Part shown: in pieces, positions 33,425 through 42,031 of the stretch
Position numbering within the stretch: position 1 is the first letter of the stretch
Layout: the number at the start of each line of letters is the position of its first letter
Source of the DNA: Deltaproteobacteria bacterium
Lineage (GTDB): Bacteria; Bdellovibrionota_B; Oligoflexia; Oligoflexales; CAIYRB01
Direction: 5' to 3'
DNA: 60,079 nucleotides
Assembly (NCBI GenBank): GCA_016874735.1
Contig: VGTI01000021.1
Location: forward strand, 1 to 60,079
Translations under genes and position numbers: made by a program
Notes under the pieces: model-generated
What the model saw: the letters and a program-made list of their open reading frames with translations, nothing else
What the model was told of the DNA's origin: nothing
Database searches by the model: none

Positions 33425-34648
33425 ATGATGATTCGTAGTGCTGTGCTTGTCGCTTCTTTGGCCGCTCTATGGGGCTGCGGCGAAGGCCAACGTGCAACAT
33501 CCGCGCTTAAATTTGGCGCCGGCGAACACGTTATCATAGGGGATCGCGGCTACTTGAGCGCCTGCGGCAAGCGTCGTGACTGCCAACCCAGCTTTGCCCG
33601 GGCCGATGGCATCGAGCGCTATAGCTACGGCGAGTTGATCGCTTTTAGCGCAGATTTTTACGAGACTGCCTCCGAAATTTTCCGTGAAACGCGCGAGCCC
33701 TGGTATCAATTGTTCCGCAACAACATTGACGCCACTCGCAAGCTCTTCCAGCAAGAAGTCCAAGCTGCCCAAAACCTAATGGATGGTCACAACGATACTG
33801 AGTACCCCGACTTTTCCAAAGGCTTCGCCCTCAACTACCGCAATTACATCAATCTTGCCGAACACAACGAAGATCATTTCGGCTTCTACAACATCAAGCG
33901 TTACGTAGCTGAACACGATCAAGCCTTGGCCCTTGCCAAGCACGCTCATGATCTGCGCCAACAGGGTGATGGTGCTGCCGACGCAGCATTGCGCGAGGCT
34001 CTATTTCAAGCCGCTTTTGCCGATCATTTCCTGACCGATGGCTTTGCCTCTGGCCACATCCGCAACCCACGGCGGCAAACTTTAGCTTGGGCCGAGAGTC
34101 ACGGATACTCAAGGCGCACCGCTGCCGCATTTAGTAAAATTCTCCACGATCGTGACGGCGAAATCCGTGAGTCCGGCGAGCACGGCCTGGCCGTGCGCAA
34201 TGCTCGTGGTGACGAGTGGTTTGCACGCTGCGATGCGCAACTATTTTACAAAAATGCCGGTGACAGTCGCGCCGTACAACTAGTCACCGAGGCGGTAGAG
34301 ATTTCGCTGGATGAGTTTTTTGCCGCCTACGATAGCGGCGTACTGCCCGAGGGCAAATTCCCCGCCTTAGACCTAGTGCCCTACCCTGACGAAGCATCCC
34401 TAAGTTTAACTGACGCTGTGAGGGTTGACCGGTTTTTACCGCAAAAGGCCTACGACGCCATGGCCTGGTATATGCATCCACCCTTTGTCAAAGACTTTAG
34501 TCCAGGTGCCATCACGGGCTTTTACAAAGCCCTGCCCGAAGTCATGGACATGATGCGGCAGGACATCAGCACGATCATCGACGGCAGTCCGGAGCTGGCT
34601 GGACGCTTGCCTGAGGCCTATCTTGCAGCATATCGGGATATCCGCTGA
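33425..34648 (+). CDS. Zinc-dependent phospholipase C / P1 nuclease-like lipoprotein
   Basis: 407 residues. Lipoprotein signal ending AALWGC (Cys18). INLAEHNEDHFGFYN (~142) and LFQAAFADHFLTDGFASGHIR (~197-217) carry the His/Asp/Glu ligands expected in the trinuclear zinc site of the phospholipase C / S1-P1 nuclease fold. The chain is mostly helical, as in that fold. It probably hydrolyses phospholipid or another phosphodiester outside the cytoplasm. GAGGGAAC precedes tandem ATG codons (33425, 33428). The family assignment is by motif only. Confidence 0.75.
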   Translation: MMIRSAVLVASLAALWGCGEGQRATSALKFGAGEHVIIGDRGYLSACGKRRDCQPSFARADGIERYSYGELIAFSADFYETASEIFRETREPWYQLFRNNIDATRKLFQQEVQAAQNLMDGHNDTEYPDFSKGFALNYRNYINLAEHNEDHFGFYNIKRYVAEHDQALALAKHAHDLRQQGDGAADAALREALFQAAFADHFLTDGFASGHIRNPRRQTLAWAESHGYSRRTAAAFSKILHDRDGEIRESGEHGLAVRNARGDEWFARCDAQLFYKNAGDSRAVQLVTEAVEISLDEFFAAYDSGVLPEGKFPALDLVPYPDEASLSLTDAVRVDRFLPQKAYDAMAWYMHPPFVKDFSPGAITGFYKALPEVMDMMRQDISTIIDGSPELAGRLPEAYLAAYRDIR

Positions 34649-34666: not shown

Positions 34667-35200
34667 TTAAGGCGGACTAAACTTACGCAGTTTACGTTGC
34701 AAGCTCTGGCGATGTAGGCCCAAAACACGAGCAGCTTGCGAAATATTGCCGTTGCATTCACTGAGCACAGACTCAATATATTCACGCTCGTGCCGCGCCA
34801 GGGACGGCGCTTGAGGTTCCGGTGGTTGAGCAGACTGCACGAAGTCGCCACCGCGCAGAGCCGCTTCGATTTGTGCGACGCTTGCAGGCTTGGTCAGATA
34901 GTTGGTGGCGCCCAGCTTCACGGCTTTGATAGCCGTAGCGATACTACCGTAGCCAGTGAGCATCACGATTTGACACATGGGATACCGTTGATGAAGCACC
35001 TCAACGAGATCGATGCCGTGATCAGTGCCCAGGCGCATATCGACAATAGCGTAGTCTAGATGCGCCCACTTATGCGCGTTAAAGGCAGCCATCGAATGAA
35101 CGATATCCACGTCATAGCCACGGTCACTAAACTCTAGCATCAACGTTTCGGCAAAATTGCGATCGTCTTCGGCAATCAGTAGTCGCGGCTGCAGAGTCAT
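34667..35200 (-). CDS. regA: RegA/ActR/PrrA-type response regulator
   Basis: About 177 residues. The receiver domain has LLIAEDDRNFAETLM, the phospho-acceptor Asp near 54 in YAIVDMRLG, IVMLTGYGSIATAIKAVKLG and NYLTKPAS. The C-terminal Fis-type helix-turn-helix is NISQAARVLGLHRQSLQRKL, the characteristic end of RegA-class regulators, with no AAA+ domain between. ATG 35200 overlaps the regB stop by one base. The pair controls respiration and redox genes in other proteobacteria, and here it lies divergent from a cytochrome/MbnP cluster that may be its target. Confidence 0.9.
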   Translation of the reverse strand: MTLQPRLLIAEDDRNFAETLMLEFSDRGYDVDIVHSMAAFNAHKWAHLDYAIVDMRLGTDHGIDLVEVLHQRYPMCQIVMLTGYGSIATAIKAVKLGATNYLTKPASVAQIEAALRGGDFVQSAQPPEPQAPSLARHEREYIESVLSECNGNISQAARVLGLHRQSLQRKLRKFSPP

Positions 35201-36543
35201 CACGCCATACTCCCGCGGTCAAGTTGCAGATGCAAACTCACGACCGTCCCACCTCGAGCGCGATCGGCCACATCGAGCGATCCACCCAGGGCTTCGGCCA
35301 GTGACCGTGCCGTGTATAAGCCAAGACCAGTGCCATCAGGTCGGGAGGAAACAAACGCTTCCCCCAGCCGCTCACGCAGCAAGTGCGGCACACCGGCGCC
35401 GCGGTCACTCACGGCAATCGTCACCATGCCGTCACGAGACGTGACTGTCATTTCGATTGCTACATTCTGGTCACCTGAAGCCTCGCGCGCGTTGTCTAGC
35501 AAATCCATCAGCGACCGGGCCAAAGCTAGCGATGGCAAGCTGCAGGTGACAGCTGCGGCCGCAGTGTCGACATGAGTCCTCACCACGACGTCTGGATGTT
35601 GCTGGGACCAGGAGTCACAAACTTTAAGGACGAAGTCAGCAACCTTGAGTTCTTCAAACCGCACGTGACCCGCTTGCAACTCGGCCCCAAACATACTGCG
35701 CATGACGGCCTCACACTGCTCTATGGCGGCCAAGGCGGCATCGACATCTCCGGATCCGGATGAGTGAGGGCTCGCGTCAGCAGTTGAGCCTGCGCGCCGC
35801 TTCTGCCGCTCCAGCCGCATCTTTGCCGTATTGAGTGGGGTGGCAAATTCGTGCGTAAAACTTGCTGCCATAGCACCTAGGGCGCGGAGGTGATCTGCTC
35901 GCTGGCACTGCGCGCGCGCGAGCTCCAGGCTGGATCTCAAAGTACGCAGACGAGTCGATAGCGATAGGGTGAGCGACCAGATGACGATCACAACTAAAAG
36001 TTGAGCCACCAGGCTCACGGCATGCGGCAGGGGCCGCCCGTGCAGTCCATGGAATACGGGCTGCGAGTTTAGACAGTAGTAGCTAACTGCGAGGCCGATG
36101 GCCATGAGATAGATGAGGCCTTGGCGCCCGCGGAGCAGGAGCGGACCAAGCACGGCATGCATATAGATCAGGGCACTCATAGGATTGGCACACCCCTGCG
36201 TCATGCCTAGAGTAAACCCGAGCACCGCCAGATCGAGCAGCATCTGCAGGAGTAACGGCAAACGCTGGTAGAGGCCACCCAGCGACAGGAACACATTGGC
36301 CGCAATGAGCAATGTCACCGCTGCCACGTAGCTCGCGATGTCCTCCCCAGCAATGAGACCGTAGTGGCGGAAACCGGCAAGACCGGCGATCATCGCGGCC
36401 ACCGCTGCCCACCTGAGGCGCAGCAACCAGCGCGCCTTGGTACCATCCTCGATGCTGCTATCTCCCGCTAATGCCAGGATTATTGATGTAAACTTGGGAC
36501 GAATAGGCATGCTCGACCACGACGGTGCAACAATATGCTGCAT
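35200..36543 (-). CDS. regB: RegB/ActS/PrrB-type redox sensor histidine kinase
   Basis: 447 residues. Six membrane helices span about residues 30-185. GCANPMSALIYMHAVLGPLL between helices corresponds to the quinone-interacting segment of RegB (usually GGxxNPF). The H-box ASFTHEFATPLNT (~231) is the phosphorylated His. A Cys in IEQCEAVMRSM (~276) sits where, as I recall, the redox-active Cys of RegB lies. N-box LLDNAREASGD and G-boxes SDRGAGVP and GTGLGLYTAR complete the kinase. It should phosphorylate the adjacent RegA in response to quinone or thiol redox state. Function is inferred from family. Confidence 0.9.
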   Translation of the reverse strand: MQHIVAPSWSSMPIRPKFTSIILALAGDSSIEDGTKARWLLRLRWAAVAAMIAGLAGFRHYGLIAGEDIASYVAAVTLLIAANVFLSLGGLYQRLPLLLQMLLDLAVLGFTLGMTQGCANPMSALIYMHAVLGPLLLRGRQGLIYLMAIGLAVSYYCLNSQPVFHGLHGRPLPHAVSLVAQLLVVIVIWSLTLSLSTRLRTLRSSLELARAQCQRADHLRALGAMAASFTHEFATPLNTAKMRLERQKRRAGSTADASPHSSGSGDVDAALAAIEQCEAVMRSMFGAELQAGHVRFEELKVADFVLKVCDSWSQQHPDVVVRTHVDTAAAAVTCSLPSLALARSLMDLLDNAREASGDQNVAIEMTVTSRDGMVTIAVSDRGAGVPHLLRERLGEAFVSSRPDGTGLGLYTARSLAEALGGSLDVADRARGGTVVSLHLQLDRGSMA

Positions 36544-36649
36544 AGCGCTGCAGCGTCCTAAATCCTAGACTTGCCTAAGTAGACTATGCAAGTGCTGTCT
36601 GCAAGGCATGCGCACCGTCACCCAAAATAATCGTCACGGGACCCTAGAC

Positions 36650-37075
36650 ATGAACCTTAAAAGCCTGGTTTTAATTACATTTTTTGGCTTACAAACCGTA
36701 CACTGCGGACCGCAGTCCCAGACCGCAACGGCCAGCGCGGCTAACGGCTCGTCGACACTGCAGCACTACACAGCCAAGCTAGATTGGCAGTCTCCCCTAG
36801 CCGCCCGGACCGCCGTGAGCGCCCGGCTCACGTTCCTAGGTAGCGCCGGAGCACCGGCCCAGTCCGTCAGCGGTATCAAGTTCACGCCATGGATGCCGTC
36901 CATGGGTCATGGGACGTCGACGGCCGATCAGCGGATCACCGCTGTGGCGGGAACCTCTCACGAGTTTTTAGTGACTGGCATCTTCTTTAGCATGGGCGGT
37001 GACTGGGAGATTCAACTCGCTGCTACAGTCGACGGACAAAGCGACAGCGCCACTATCGCCGTGAGCGTGCCCTGA
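36650..37075 (+). CDS. YtkA-like domain lipoprotein
   Basis: 141 residues from ATG 36650 (the frame is open to 36608). Signal with Cys near residue 18 (GLQTVHC). The mature Ig-like domain has FTPWMPSMGHGT and FFSMGGDWEIQL, typical of YtkA-like domains found in copper and nitrous-oxide related loci. The Met/His-containing loop could bind copper. It is first in a six-gene plus-strand cluster, and its stop overlaps the next start by one base (TGATG). Confidence 0.75.
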   Translation: MNLKSLVLITFFGLQTVHCGPQSQTATASAANGSSTLQHYTAKLDWQSPLAARTAVSARLTFLGSAGAPAQSVSGIKFTPWMPSMGHGTSTADQRITAVAGTSHEFLVTGIFFSMGGDWEIQLAATVDGQSDSATIAVSVP

Positions 37076-37992
37076 TGCTCCCGATGGGTAGACAGGGAGC
37101 TACGGTGCTGATGGCGTCAACCCTCATGTGGCTCGCCCCCGTCCTTAGTGAGGCGGCATTCGGCTGCGCGTCGTGCGGCAGTGGTGGCGATGATCCACTG
37201 ATCCTCTACCCTAACGAACGCGATAAAACGTTCCTAGCTCTAGGCCGGACGGCGGGATTTCGCAACATCAACGCCAATGGCGGTCTGGCCACCGCTGGTG
37301 GCCCCCTGGAGCGCGAGAATCTGACGGTCGCCTATGGCCACAGCTTCTCTATAAGGTCCTTTGCCACGGTCACGGTGCCCACCTTCCGCAATGTGGGTGA
37401 GCACGATGCGGTATCGGGCGTGGGCGACCCCCTAGTTGTCACGCGCTACACCCTCGTCATGCCGGACTTGACTGAACCCTTGGTCCCCCAGGTGCAACTC
37501 ATCGCTGGATTCAAACAGTCCCACGCCAGGTCGGTGCATGATGCACAGAACACAAGGGATCTGCTCGACGTCTTCGGTACTGGCTTTTCCGATGCCAGAG
37601 CCGGCGTCGATTTATGGTTCGGTCAATACGCAACAAAATTCGGTTTAGCGCAAACTGTCGCTCAACCCCTGTCACGCAGCTACGATGGCATCGAGTATCA
37701 CCCTGGACTCATCGCCCGCACGACATTGACCACAGGCTATCAGTGGACATCGATGGTGAAAACTTTAGTAGGGGCTAATCGCGAACAAACGCGCGAGCTA
37801 CGCGTCGGCGACACCACGGTATCCAACTCAGGCCAAATTAATCATTCGATTTTTGTGACTCAAGATTATTATCCCAGCACGTCTCAACTTGTTCGTTTCA
37901 CGCTGTCGCAGCAGGCTGCTTTTGGCGTAAACAAAAACACCGCCCGTAGCAATACGTTCACCGTCGCCTATATGCATGCCCTAAAAAGCTAA
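37075..37992 (+). CDS. Outer-membrane beta-barrel protein with N-terminal CxxC
   Basis: 305 residues. Signal peptide ends near SEAAFG. The mature N-terminus has CASCGSGGDDPLILYPNE, a metal-binding-like CxxC box. It is followed by alternating amphipathic strands (FATVTVPTFRNVGEHDA, AGVDLWFGQYATKFGL, TTLTTGYQWTSMV) consistent with a transmembrane barrel of about 14 strands. The C-terminus ends in MHALKS rather than aromatic. The context suggests a porin or receptor for metal in the MbnP cluster. Confidence 0.7.
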   Translation: MLPMGRQGATVLMASTLMWLAPVLSEAAFGCASCGSGGDDPLILYPNERDKTFLALGRTAGFRNINANGGLATAGGPLERENLTVAYGHSFSIRSFATVTVPTFRNVGEHDAVSGVGDPLVVTRYTLVMPDLTEPLVPQVQLIAGFKQSHARSVHDAQNTRDLLDVFGTGFSDARAGVDLWFGQYATKFGLAQTVAQPLSRSYDGIEYHPGLIARTTLTTGYQWTSMVKTLVGANREQTRELRVGDTTVSNSGQINHSIFVTQDYYPSTSQLVRFTLSQQAAFGVNKNTARSNTFTVAYMHALKS

Positions 37993-38026
37993 TCATCCCT
38001 ATTCCATTGTAAAAGGAGAGATTTGC

Positions 38027-38920
38027 ATGCCGCGCCAACTGTTTGGAACTACGCCGTTTCTGTGCGCGCTATCTGGAGCCATAGCCCTACTCAGCTGCGG
38101 CAAAAAAGACACCAAAGCCACCGATGCCACGGTTGCTGCGACGCAACCTGTCACCATCAATTTTAAGGCAACCGTCGGCGACGCCCCACTTAACTGCGGT
38201 CAGAGCTACGCCGGTGTTGGCACCACAGGATCGACCATTGAGGTTCGTGACTTTCGCTTTTATGTTTATAACCCGCAGCTCCTAAAAGCCGACGGCACCA
38301 AAGTCGCTCTGACCTTGACTCAAGATGGCAAATGGCAACGTGACAACGTGGCATTACTGGATTTCACTAACGGCACGGGACTTTGCGATAGCAGCGGCAC
38401 ATCTACTAATACAGCTATAGGTGGCACCGTCCCGATCGGCACCTATACGGGACTTAGTTTCCAGTTTGGCCTACCTCCTAAACTCAACCATCTCAATGCT
38501 GCCACGGAGACCGCCCCCTTTAACGAGACTGGCATGTGGTGGACTTGGAAGGGCGGCTACAAATATTCCCGATTTGATTTTAAAACATCCGGCCAAGACA
38601 ACTTCTATATCCACATGGGAGCGACCAACTGCACGGGGACCGTTGAGGCAGGATTCACCTGCGCCTACGACTATGAACCCATCATGAGCTTTGCCGCATT
38701 TGATTCTGCCACGCAAGCCATCAAACTTGACGTGAAAACGCTACTCACAGGAAGCGATCTCGACGCCGCACCCAACACACAGGCGGGTGATTTCGTCAAA
38801 GGCTGCATGGCCTTCCCGGGCGACCAGGAATGCCCGCCGATTTTCGAAAAATTAGGCTTAGTATTTTCATCTAAAGATGCGGGTCCTGCCGCCACGGCAT
38901 TCACTGTAGTCAATCTATGA
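38027..38920 (+). CDS. MbnP-family copper-binding lipoprotein
   Basis: 297 residues with strong AAGGAGAGA before ATG. Lipoprotein signal ending AIALLSC. VTINFKATVGD, TIEVRDFRFYVYN, TGLSFQFGLP, GMWWTWKGGYKYSRFDF and NFYIHMGATNC follow the MbnP family pattern. In studied systems MbnP carries a Trp oxidised to kynurenine by the partner diheme enzyme MbnH and binds copper. A MbnH-like gene lies two genes downstream. No methanobactin precursor is present, so a copper-storage or acquisition role separate from methanobactin is likelier. Confidence 0.88.
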   Translation: MPRQLFGTTPFLCALSGAIALLSCGKKDTKATDATVAATQPVTINFKATVGDAPLNCGQSYAGVGTTGSTIEVRDFRFYVYNPQLLKADGTKVALTLTQDGKWQRDNVALLDFTNGTGLCDSSGTSTNTAIGGTVPIGTYTGLSFQFGLPPKLNHLNAATETAPFNETGMWWTWKGGYKYSRFDFKTSGQDNFYIHMGATNCTGTVEAGFTCAYDYEPIMSFAAFDSATQAIKLDVKTLLTGSDLDAAPNTQAGDFVKGCMAFPGDQECPPIFEKLGLVFSSKDAGPAATAFTVVNL

Positions 38921-38934
38921 TGGAGGTATTCTAG

Positions 38935-39468
38935 ATGAAGTCATACTGTGGATGGCTAGGTACATTATTGATCGGGACAGTCCTTTGGTCCTGCGGCAAG
39001 GAGCAAGCCAGTAGTAAGGATGTTGCAGCGTGTAACATAGGCGACAGTTGCTACGCTCGCGACACCGCGACGCTCAATGTCCCCAACATCAGCGTCTCAG
39101 GTGGCAGCAAAAGCCACAATCATGGCCAAAACTGCATGAGTTGCCACCAAGATAAAGGTCCCGGCAAAGGACTCTTTGTCATTGCTGGCAGTCTCAACAA
39201 AAATGCCAGCACGCCCTGGGTGGACGGGGCGACGATTAAACTGTTTAGCGACAAGGCGAGAACCCAGCTCGTCACCTCGGTCAGTGCAGACGCCCTCGGT
39301 AACTTCTACTCCACCGATAAGGTCACGGTGCCAGCAGCAGGACTATTCGTGTCGATCTTTGATCTAGACGACCGGAAGCTACAGGACATGGGATCACCGA
39401 AGATTTCCTTTGCCTGTAATATTTGCCATGCTGGATCGGCAAAACTAATCGTTAAGCCTGGAACTTGA
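38935..39468 (+). CDS. Cytochrome c lipoprotein with two CxxCH motifs
   Basis: 177 residues with GGAGG upstream. Signal ending TVLWSC. Two heme-binding motifs: HGQNCMSCHQDKG near residue 67 and ACNICHAG near 162. Between them is a carboxypeptidase-regulatory-like beta domain (TPWVDGATIKLFSDKA and AGLFVSIFDLDDRKL). An extra CNIGDSC precedes the first heme. It lies between mbnP and mbnH-like genes, so it may pass electrons to or from the peroxidase-like enzyme. Confidence 0.8.
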   Translation: MKSYCGWLGTLLIGTVLWSCGKEQASSKDVAACNIGDSCYARDTATLNVPNISVSGGSKSHNHGQNCMSCHQDKGPGKGLFVIAGSLNKNASTPWVDGATIKLFSDKARTQLVTSVSADALGNFYSTDKVTVPAAGLFVSIFDLDDRKLQDMGSPKISFACNICHAGSAKLIVKPGT

Positions 39469-39493
39469 ATAACAAGTGGTGAGAGTTGGTGAG

Positions 39494-40489
39494 ATGACCC
39501 TTCGTTGGCTAGGATTAACCTACAAACTCGTAACTCTTCTGACGCTCACCGCATGCGGATATCACCAGCACAAAGATGGTCAGAGTCAGAGGAGCCAAGA
39601 GCCTCCCGAGCTACGCGAGCTGGGGCGCCAGCTCTTTTCTGACCCTCGGCTGTCGCTTGATGGGAGTATGTCATGCCAAAGTTGTCACGAACCGCACTAT
39701 GCCTATACCGATCGTCGTAGCCTGCCCTTTGGTGTCACAGGTATCACGCTACCACGCAACAGTCCGTCCATACTCTACACCGGCAAGTTTACCAAGTTGA
39801 CCTGGGTCAACCCCGTCCTCGACTCCTTAGAGCAGCAGTTACTGGTCCCGCTATTTGGCGAAAATCCGCCGGAACTGCACATCGGCCCGCGCGAGGAGGC
39901 TATCTGGCGAGCCGTCTTTGCCAGTGAAGAACGAGCGCGACTGCGCGCCGCTGCTGCGTCAGCCCTTGGATCGGAAGCCGGCACTAGGACCGTCGTCCTG
40001 AAAGCGCTCGCTACCTACGTCAGCAGTTTAGCTCCCTTCGCAAGTCCGTACGACCGCTATCTTGCCGGCGAGGGACATGCGCTGAGTGACCGGCAAAAGA
40101 CGGGACTACAGCTCTTTGAAGGCAAGGCTGGATGCGTGGGCTGTCACAGCGGGCCTTTATTCAATGGTCAAACTTTTGATGCCAAGAGCAAGGCGTGGGG
40201 ATCCAATATTTTCCGCCGCAATGGGCTGAATAATCAACAACGCAGATCTGATCAGCCTCTGGGTTTAGCCGAGTTTACCTTGCAACCAGACGACTGGAAC
40301 CTATTTCGGGTCCCATCGCTACGTAATGTTGCCGAAACGGCGCCATACCTGCATGATGGTTCACGAGCGACCCTTGCCGGACTGTTGCAGGAATATAATG
40401 CAGCCAGCAAGCTAGCGCTCGACAGCAACGAATTAACGGCACTCGAGGACTTTTTAAAATCACTCTCCGATGCCGCCATACCACTCTAG
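39494..40489 (+). CDS. MbnH-like diheme peroxidase-family enzyme
   Basis: About 331 residues; ATG 39494 preferred, frame open to GTG 39476. Lipoprotein-like signal (LLTLTACG). Heme sites are SMSCQSCHEPHYAYTD (~64) and KAGCVGCHSGPLFNG (~222). ELGRQLFSDPRLS, VPSLRNVAETAPYLHDG and the intervening tyrosines match the bacterial diheme cytochrome c peroxidase/MauG superfamily. The neighbouring MbnP supports MbnH, which uses a bis-Fe(IV)-type state to oxidise a Trp on MbnP. Ordinary cytochrome c peroxidase is the alternative. Confidence 0.85.
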   Translation: MTLRWLGLTYKLVTLLTLTACGYHQHKDGQSQRSQEPPELRELGRQLFSDPRLSLDGSMSCQSCHEPHYAYTDRRSLPFGVTGITLPRNSPSILYTGKFTKLTWVNPVLDSLEQQLLVPLFGENPPELHIGPREEAIWRAVFASEERARLRAAAASALGSEAGTRTVVLKALATYVSSLAPFASPYDRYLAGEGHALSDRQKTGLQLFEGKAGCVGCHSGPLFNGQTFDAKSKAWGSNIFRRNGLNNQQRRSDQPLGLAEFTLQPDDWNLFRVPSLRNVAETAPYLHDGSRATLAGLLQEYNAASKLALDSNELTALEDFLKSLSDAAIPL

Positions 40490-40513
40490 ACTAGACTTGG
40501 AGACCTCTTGGTT

Positions 40514-41422
40514 ATGAACCGCCCCCTTTTAACTCTGTGCGCTGCGGTTGCAGCTCTGACACTTCCGCTCAAAGGTTTGGCTACAACCCAAACAGAAACC
40601 TTCTTGCAGCTCGACGCCTGCCGTCACTTTGTGCGCCTCTCAGACACCACGCTCCTGGTGGGACGTGACGACGGCCTCTCCGTCATCGATCCTAGCGGAC
40701 ACAGTTCCGTACTTAAAATTGACCACGCGGTGCGGGACGCTGTGCGCGTTGACGACCACATCGTTGCGCTGGTCGATGCGGACATCGTCCGTGTGGATCT
40801 AGCCACTGGCGCCGTCACCAACCGTGTCGCTACCCAGGCGGTAAAGCCGTCGCGCGAACTCCTGGCCCACGAGATGCCGCGAGCTCTTGCACGTCACGGC
40901 GACGCGCTGCTCGTGGCTCACGGCACCCTGGGTGTCACCATCCTCGATCCTGCAACACTCGAGTTGAGGTCGATGATCGCTATCAATGCCGGGGAAAAAG
41001 TGAAAAATATGGCACAGGACCTCGTGGTCAGTGGCGACCAGGTATTTGCCCTCGTCGACAATTATCAAATTAATCCGGTACGCCCGAATCTGCAATTCCG
41101 TGGCCTCTTGCAACTTGATAGCACCGAGGGACAAATCAGCGGCAGATTTGGTGGCCTCGATCCTGGTGCCACCGCGGTCGCTTGGCATGACGACACGTTA
41201 CTCGTCAGCTTTGGTGGGCATCCCGTGTGGCGACTGAGGACACCACTCAGCGCCGCCGTCCCGCTCGCTAAAGGATCACGGCTCATGACTAAACTAGGCA
41301 GCGACAGAAGAATCGTCGGACGATTCAGCCTTGATGACGCCCATGTTTGGGCCTGTCAGCGGAGCAACCAGGGTGCTGCTAGCGTCCCCGTTGTTTTCGA
41401 CCGAGCAAGTCTCGGCCTCTGA
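40514..41422 (+). CDS. Periplasmic beta-propeller-like protein
   Basis: About 302 residues with a Sec signal (LLTLCAAVAALTLPLKGLA). Repeating blocks such as LLVGRDDGLSVIDPSG, IVALVDADIVRVDLATG, LLVAHGTLGVTILDPATL and VFALVDNYQ have the period of WD40/YVTN-type propeller blades. There is no catalytic signature. Being last in the MbnP cluster with an 18-24 base gap, it may serve as an assembly or binding partner. Start is TTG 40508 or ATG 40514, with GGAG upstream. Confidence 0.65.
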   Translation: MNRPLLTLCAAVAALTLPLKGLATTQTETFLQLDACRHFVRLSDTTLLVGRDDGLSVIDPSGHSSVLKIDHAVRDAVRVDDHIVALVDADIVRVDLATGAVTNRVATQAVKPSRELLAHEMPRALARHGDALLVAHGTLGVTILDPATLELRSMIAINAGEKVKNMAQDLVVSGDQVFALVDNYQINPVRPNLQFRGLLQLDSTEGQISGRFGGLDPGATAVAWHDDTLLVSFGGHPVWRLRTPLSAAVPLAKGSRLMTKLGSDRRIVGRFSLDDAHVWACQRSNQGAASVPVVFDRASLGL

Positions 41423-41497
41423 GCCTGGGCACCAACTTTGACCTCCACTATCTGGCACGAAGCTTGCTTGGCTTCGATTAGAGGTAGGAGGTTGCTT

Positions 41498-42031
41498 ATG
41501 TTCACACACTCGTTTTGCAAGGCTTTCATTTATGGATTTTTTTCATCGCTAGTCCTGGCGACCTTAGCCAGGTCGCTGCCTGCACGCGGTGAGTCATGGT
41601 CCGGTACTAATGTTTACACCAACGCCTACGGCTTACCCTGCACTGTATCGCTAGATCGAGACGGGGACGGTAACGTCAAGCGCGTCATCGTGAGCGGTGC
41701 GGCCTATAGGGTCAGTCACTGGTCTGAGCCTAAGGCCGAGGTGACTGGCAGTACCATCACTGTCGGCGAACTCATCACATCGCCCGAGCTACACAGTTTC
41801 CAGAGTTTTGCCTCGGTGCCGTCGCTCGCGCACCTAGGGATGACGCGGATGGGACTGCAGATTTTGACCGGCAACCTAGATCATCCGTGGCCGGGTTTTC
41901 AGGATGTGCGCTACGTCGTGCGCAACTCTGACTTTACCGAGATCATAGCAAAATCGACGGTCTCCATGATGCTCCGCGCGATCCCACTCGGATCGGACGA
42001 GATTCACTGTAGTGACTTGCGCGCCGATTAG
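41498..42031 (+). CDS. Secreted protein of unknown function
   Basis: 177 residues from ATG 41498, which has GTAGGAGG at good spacing; the open frame begins earlier at 41438 but without a site. Signal peptide FIYGFFSSLVLATLARSLPARG. The mature part (GTNVYTNAYGLPCTVSLDRD, DGNVKRVIVSGAAYRVSHW) looks beta-rich, with only two Cys. No family is recognised. Confidence 0.65.
   Translation: MFTHSFCKAFIYGFFSSLVLATLARSLPARGESWSGTNVYTNAYGLPCTVSLDRDGDGNVKRVIVSGAAYRVSHWSEPKAEVTGSTITVGELITSPELHSFQSFASVPSLAHLGMTRMGLQILTGNLDHPWPGFQDVRYVVRNSDFTEIIAKSTVSMMLRAIPLGSDEIHCSDLRAD

Follow-up and report, generated by a model that had tools for sequence, protein, structure and literature searches.

A candidate redox-switched copper-handling locus in a deltaproteobacterium, with a diheme cytochrome between MbnP and an MbnH-like enzyme

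Introduction

The copper protein MbnP and its partner enzyme MbnH are the closest described counterparts of the genes analysed here. In work by Manesis et al. in PNAS in 2021, the first Trp of a WxW motif in MbnP was reportedly found to be converted to kynurenine, with a His and a Met binding Cu(I). MopE of methanotrophs also holds a Trp-derived kynurenine in its copper site, and in the SACCP/MopE and CorB/CorA systems, as in MbnP/MbnH, a diheme enzyme adjoins a copper protein; the partner proteins of those systems differ in having no marked sequence similarity to MbnP (PMC3621798). The MbnP/MbnH pair itself is conserved far outside methanobactin producers (PMC3621798).

Regulators and other maturation systems have also been tied to copper. 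RegA of R. capsulatus binds copper, and its Cys156 disulfide forms with Cu(II) and O2 (PMC9147068). Bufferins, the products of a copper-linked maturation cassette built on MNIO enzymes, chelate copper and aid growth under copper stress (PMC12452194). Here we describe a locus in which an MbnP/MbnH-like pair, with a diheme cytochrome between its members, lies in one run with a YtkA-like protein and an outer-membrane barrel, divergent from a RegB/RegA-like pair.

Results

Organization of the locus

The window is a 60,079-nucleotide stretch (contig VGTI01000021.1 of assembly GCA_016874735.1, our contig C21) from a draft genome of 4.65 Mb in a small phylum, represented here by 58 genomes. A sequence-only reading of this DNA had listed a RegBA pair opposite six genes, running from a YtkA-like lipoprotein to a propeller protein; this inventory was borne out, with eight ORFs arranged in two tight, divergent runs.

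34667..35203, minus strand: RegA-like response regulator (ORF and best NCBIfam match)
35200..36543, minus strand: RegB-like sensor kinase (ORF and best NCBIfam match)
36544..36649, no strand: divergent control region, from RegB to the probable YtkA start (arrangement alike in genomes G002 and G005)
36608..37075, plus strand: YtkA-like protein, probable lipoprotein (likely true start 36650)
37075..37992, plus strand: 12-strand channel-like outer-membrane barrel with CxxC (predicted structure)
38027..38920, plus strand: MbnP copper protein with lipoprotein signal LLSC (TIGR04052, PF20243)
38486..38548, plus strand: predicted copper-site codons N154-H155 ... M170-W171-W172-T173-W174 (alignment to 7l6g)
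38935..39468, plus strand: diheme c-type cytochrome lipoprotein (two CxxCH; MbnP-fused in other genomes)
39476..40489, plus strand: MbnH-like MauG-type diheme enzyme (TIGR04039 best match; residues kept)
40508..41422, plus strand: weakly propeller-like secreted protein (weak Pfam matches)
41438..42031, plus strand: small protein, no family assigned

The minus-strand RegB and RegA genes overlap each other. On the plus strand YtkA and the barrel overlap by 1 base, and the later gaps are 34, 14, 7 and 18 bp; the small protein gene starts 15 bp past the propeller-like gene and is possibly the last member of the run. The propeller-like protein has only weak matches (Glu_cyclase_2 and PQQ_2, E about 3e-4), and in the compared loci its sole relative lies beside MbnH in G004. 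Adjoining RegA at 33425-34648 is a 407-residue lipoprotein-like protein with no significant Pfam or NCBIfam match. A simple promoter scan gave nothing exceeding chance.

MbnP and the MbnH-like enzyme keep the residues of a modified copper site

MbnP passes the cut-offs of both TIGR04052 (253 bits against 140) and PF20243 (134 bits against 27). Aligned to Methylosinus MbnP (7l6g), it keeps H155 of an 'NH' pair, M170, two residues ahead of the WxW motif, W172 and W174. The Trp foreseen by the sequence-only reading as the kynurenine site is thus present, together with the flanking His and Met; we predict that W172 is the residue to be oxidized and that H155 and M170 are Cu(I) ligands. The predicted structure of a fused relative has the 7l6g fold in its MbnP half (E 7e-19).

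The neighbouring enzyme has TIGR04039 as its best match (E 2e-67), at 227.8 bits against an NCBI cut-off of 362.85, and is therefore called MbnH-like. Its closest solved structure is 6e1c; haem motifs lie at C67 and C220, an inter-haem Trp is found at position 110, and Tyr307 stands where the peroxidase 1iqc has Met. The two proteins thus resemble the described MbnP/MbnH pair (TIGR04052/TIGR04039; 7l6g, 6e1c) in lying in one run and in keeping the copper-site and MauG-type residues, which suggests that MbnH may act on MbnP; they differ from it in the enzyme score, in the diheme cytochrome placed between them or fused to MbnP, and in the added RegBA, YtkA and CxxC barrel. Membership of the bCcP/MauG superfamily (PF03150) and the RegBA linkage would also fit a system in which cytochrome and MbnH dispose of peroxide or electrons and copper is incidental, but we regard this as very improbable, given Tyr instead of Met at the ligand position and the constant pairing of MbnH with an MbnP in which the copper-site residues are retained.

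The cluster had further been read as free of methanobactin genes, and this stands: it contains no MNIO/MbnB gene, and a methanobactin link was rejected. The single MNIO gene of the genome lies on contig C100 (L146), apart from the cluster, in a bufferin-like set with DUF2063-like and DoxX-like genes and a probable sigma and anti-sigma factor. A second MbnP-like subfamily was seen at L018:12059-14262, L020:7245-9727, L021:5441-7756 and L022:5553-7857. Its members score under the TIGR04052 cut-off and carry 'APSDMGWMW' in place of NH...MWWxW; each has its own diheme enzyme and adjoins a canonical MbnP/MbnH pair.

A diheme cytochrome family occurs with MbnP

The cytochrome encoded between MbnP and MbnH is a 177-residue lipoprotein with two CxxCH motifs that matches no curated family in Pfam or NCBIfam. 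In this genome and its sister it carries a separate lipoprotein signal; elsewhere the domain is found at the C-terminal end of MbnP, within one polypeptide. In the phylum, a profile of the domain matches exactly 7 of 56 genomes, and MbnP is present in all seven. Among 284 Myxococcota genomes there are nine strong matches (E 3e-41 to 3e-24), each of which either has its gene between those of MbnP and MbnH or is an MbnP fusion. MbnP is present in 77 of these 284 genomes, which makes the cytochrome type the less common one. The weaker Myxococcota matches (E above 1e-13), of which the single one inspected (L211) lacks MbnP, are probably other cytochromes. Strong members of the family were found only with MbnP.

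In eight of the genomes with strong members the domain is fused to MbnP; we infer the fusion in G050, because its two parts fall on different contigs. In the MbnP tree the cytochrome-bearing members form one clade (support 97/96), within which there are three changes between the fused and split states. A fold search of the fusion gave only weak transthyretin-like matches for the cytochrome part (E about 0.006). The cytochrome was absent from an MbnP genome scan, which is weak evidence because the seeds drew mostly cyanobacterial MbnP. The fusions show that cytochrome and MbnP act together.

The gene set recurs in distant bacteria

The sequence-only reading had expected the association to be conserved in other genomes, and it was found in four lineages of two phyla: in each, the triad of MbnP, cytochrome and MbnH is flanked by RegBA and the CxxC barrel, and usually by the YtkA lipoprotein. 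The proximity of RegBA to the MbnP set is likewise repeated outside this lineage. One lineage is the genus of this locus. In a second, three genomes of family f12 have the order YtkA-barrel-TrxL-RegB-RegA-MbnP::cytochrome, where TrxL is a small thioredoxin-like gene, and MbnH follows in both of those whose contigs continue; the f12 genomes are relatives, and we therefore count lineages. In the Myxococcota genome G192, barrel and YtkA are divergent from RegB-RegA, which is followed by MbnH and MbnP::cytochrome; G221 has the triad, barrel and RegBA, with YtkA undetected.

Across 16 cytochrome-type MbnP loci, RegB is near 6, YtkA near 6 and the barrel near 7, compared with 1, 1 and 0 for 35 other MbnP loci of similar length (Fisher P 0.0025, 0.0025 and 1e-4, with the related genomes G048, G050 and G052 each counted separately). 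The association is far beyond chance, and the recurrence of the set in such distant bacteria suggests one working copper-handling unit. Many MbnP/MbnH pairs occur without the cytochrome, barrel or RegBA, which are therefore unnecessary for the basic chemistry.

At L024:2727-5458, directly upstream of the related G052 cluster, DUF2796-like, COG0523-like GTPase and Fur-like genes, named by eye, hint at zinc. The metal of the core may therefore not be copper alone.

The RegB/RegA-like pair keeps its redox cysteines

Both regulators have the redox family as their best NCBIfam match, at scores under the cut-off: ActR/PrrA/RegA (NF033791) for RegA (E 2.7e-41; 141.4 bits against 250) and ActS/PrrB/RegB (NF033792) for RegB (E 1e-33; 116.8 bits against 350). 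Rhodobacter RegB has a redox-active Cys and a quinone motif, each with a role in its function. The RegB studied here has the H-box THEFATPL and, after it, Cys277, equivalent to Cys265 and invariant in five aligned rows; the quinone motif GGxxNPF is degenerate (QGCANPM), compared with GGAWNPF in the f12 relatives. In RegA, Cys150 (equivalent to Cys156) lies in SECNGNIS, just ahead of a Fis-type helix-turn-helix. The arrangement resembles RegB-SenC-RegA of Rhodobacter (PMC9147068) in linking a redox two-component pair to a copper/thioredoxin-fold protein; it differs in its neighbours and in the degenerate quinone motif.

In the RegB tree the cluster-linked kinases form one clade in this genus and another in family f12. 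A single clade was not supported, as the tree requires two changes; the two clades, which track the two families, may reflect recruitment on more than one occasion or else ancient inheritance. Contig C92 carries another RegBA pair of this genome (L108:3328-5179); adjoined by membrane proteins of which one has CxxCH, it is probably the general redox regulator.

A YtkA-barrel core extends beyond MbnP

The YtkA-like protein scores 25.3 bits with PF13115, under the gathering cut-off of 25.9; its probable start at 36650 is taken from the start position in the sister species. The barrel at 37075-37992 has no Pfam match. Its predicted structure (pLDDT 90) resembles 12-strand outer-membrane channels, namely the COG4313 channel (4rl8) and FapF (5o65), which are alike in fold (TM about 0.62-0.69) but with sequence identity of about 10%; the N-terminal CASCG is a trait of the barrel family seen here. 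Cys31 and Cys34 of this motif, in a flexible N-terminus, are invariant across 31 relatives.

Within the phylum the barrel occurs in 39 of 56 genomes, and MbnP in 11 of 58. At 35 barrel loci a YtkA gene is near 31, a small thioredoxin-like gene with CxxC near 24, RegBA near 6, MbnP near 5 and an MNIO cassette near 3. Related barrels in Myxococcota have YtkA adjoining, and in one case RegB and RegA flank both sides. No barrel was found in plasmids or, in a search without a positive control, in 17 genomes of other phyla. The YtkA-barrel core is wider than MbnP and usually includes the thioredoxin-like gene.

This composition raises the possibility of respiratory oxidase assembly, with MbnP as the copper donor for a YtkA protein like CtaK, a TrxL like Sco/SenC, and RegBA. 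YtkA/CtaK partners Sco in assisting CuA assembly (PMC13344008); SenC, which takes part in assembling the cbb3 oxidase, shows a link to RegA in Rhodobacter (PMC9147068); and the genome has one COX1 gene. That gene is on another contig, C34, however, and inspection of core loci, where most neighbours were judged by eye, revealed no adjacent gene for an oxidase subunit; TrxL is missing from this cluster, and an outer-membrane barrel is unexpected for such a role. We consider this explanation improbable.

MNIO cassettes occupy the position of MbnP in related genomes

In G002 and G005, of the same genus, RegBA is divergent from YtkA-barrel as in the MbnP cluster, and the genes after the barrel encode a monohaem cytochrome rich in Cys, an enzyme of the MNIO family (PF05114, E 4e-95) and a DUF2063 protein. 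By analogy with bufferin/MNIO clusters (PMC12452194), this cassette, which fills the slot equivalent to that of MbnP, would perform bufferin-like copper chemistry; the MbnP cluster differs in having no MNIO and in chemistry of the MauG type. MNIO/DUF2063 genes also lie beside the core in G007, and in G053 RegBA, an MNIO cassette and YtkA are grouped, with two MbnP/MbnH pairs further on. In G011 (L106:6686-11031) the gene directly after the YtkA-barrel-TrxL core encodes a P-type metal ATPase with an HMA domain. As the core is wider than MbnP and its slot can hold an MNIO cassette, there are at least two interchangeable effectors, of which MbnP/MbnH is one.

At six loci (L089:5561-6292, L088:6536-7258, L100:3617-4342, L020:15338-16186, L153:6482-7282 and L155:7205-7930) a protein combines a Cys-rich domain, with motifs of the CKG type, and a monohaem cytochrome c; MNIO and DUF2063 genes adjoin it in all six. 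It is likely a cytochrome-type MNIO substrate.

These neighbours bear on whether the system acquires copper, with scarce metal captured at the outer membrane and imported by the barrel, as is thought for MbnP/MbnH, MopE and CorA of methanotrophs. The core does include an outer-membrane channel, MbnP/MbnH genes are found within methanobactin operons, and copper lowers the expression of the analogous CorA/CorB genes (PMC3621798). The cluster, however, lacks a TonB-dependent receptor, an importer and any methanobactin gene, and the bufferin-like exchangeable cassette and the G011 ATPase indicate excess copper; we therefore favour buffering and judge acquisition unlikely.

Discussion

We consider it reasonably likely that the locus is an envelope copper-handling unit switched by a RegBA-type redox system, with interchangeable protein-maturation cassettes in its effector slot. 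In the mechanism we propose, the YtkA-like lipoprotein and the CxxC outer-membrane channel would either hand copper on or bind it at the envelope; MbnH would oxidize Trp172 of MbnP to kynurenine, after which His155 and Met170 would help MbnP to hold Cu(I). The diheme cytochrome would be a dedicated redox partner of MbnP, and two tasks are plausible for its electrons: reduction of incoming Cu(II) to Cu(I) at MbnP, or supply to the MbnH reaction. RegB may respond to redox state, whether of respiration or of thiols, with RegA possibly sensing copper, so as to switch the divergent genes. The net role is most likely envelope copper binding and buffering.

More tentatively, RegBA-YtkA-CxxC barrel(-TrxL) may constitute an unrecognised envelope copper module whose effector slot takes unrelated cassettes, either of the MauG type (MbnP-cytochrome-MbnH, with kynurenine) or of the MNIO type (Cys-rich cytochrome-MNIO-DUF2063). 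Both would join a modified copper binder to a c-type cytochrome, with redox coupling in cis as the common principle.

The MbnP/MbnH pair was already known; the cytochrome partner, the fusions and the cassette exchange look new. A literature search, which did not cover the 2021 neighbourhood analysis of MbnP, gave no account of these three or of the linkage to RegBA and the barrel. MbnP/MbnH pairs are widespread, and the cytochrome, as a conserved third component with MbnP fusions in several lineages, provides a concrete candidate for their redox partner. The link of the cytochrome-type MbnP to RegBA and an outer-membrane channel offers a candidate regulator and a candidate route, and the exchange with MNIO cassettes, if true, would mean that two unrelated tailoring chemistries serve one copper task.
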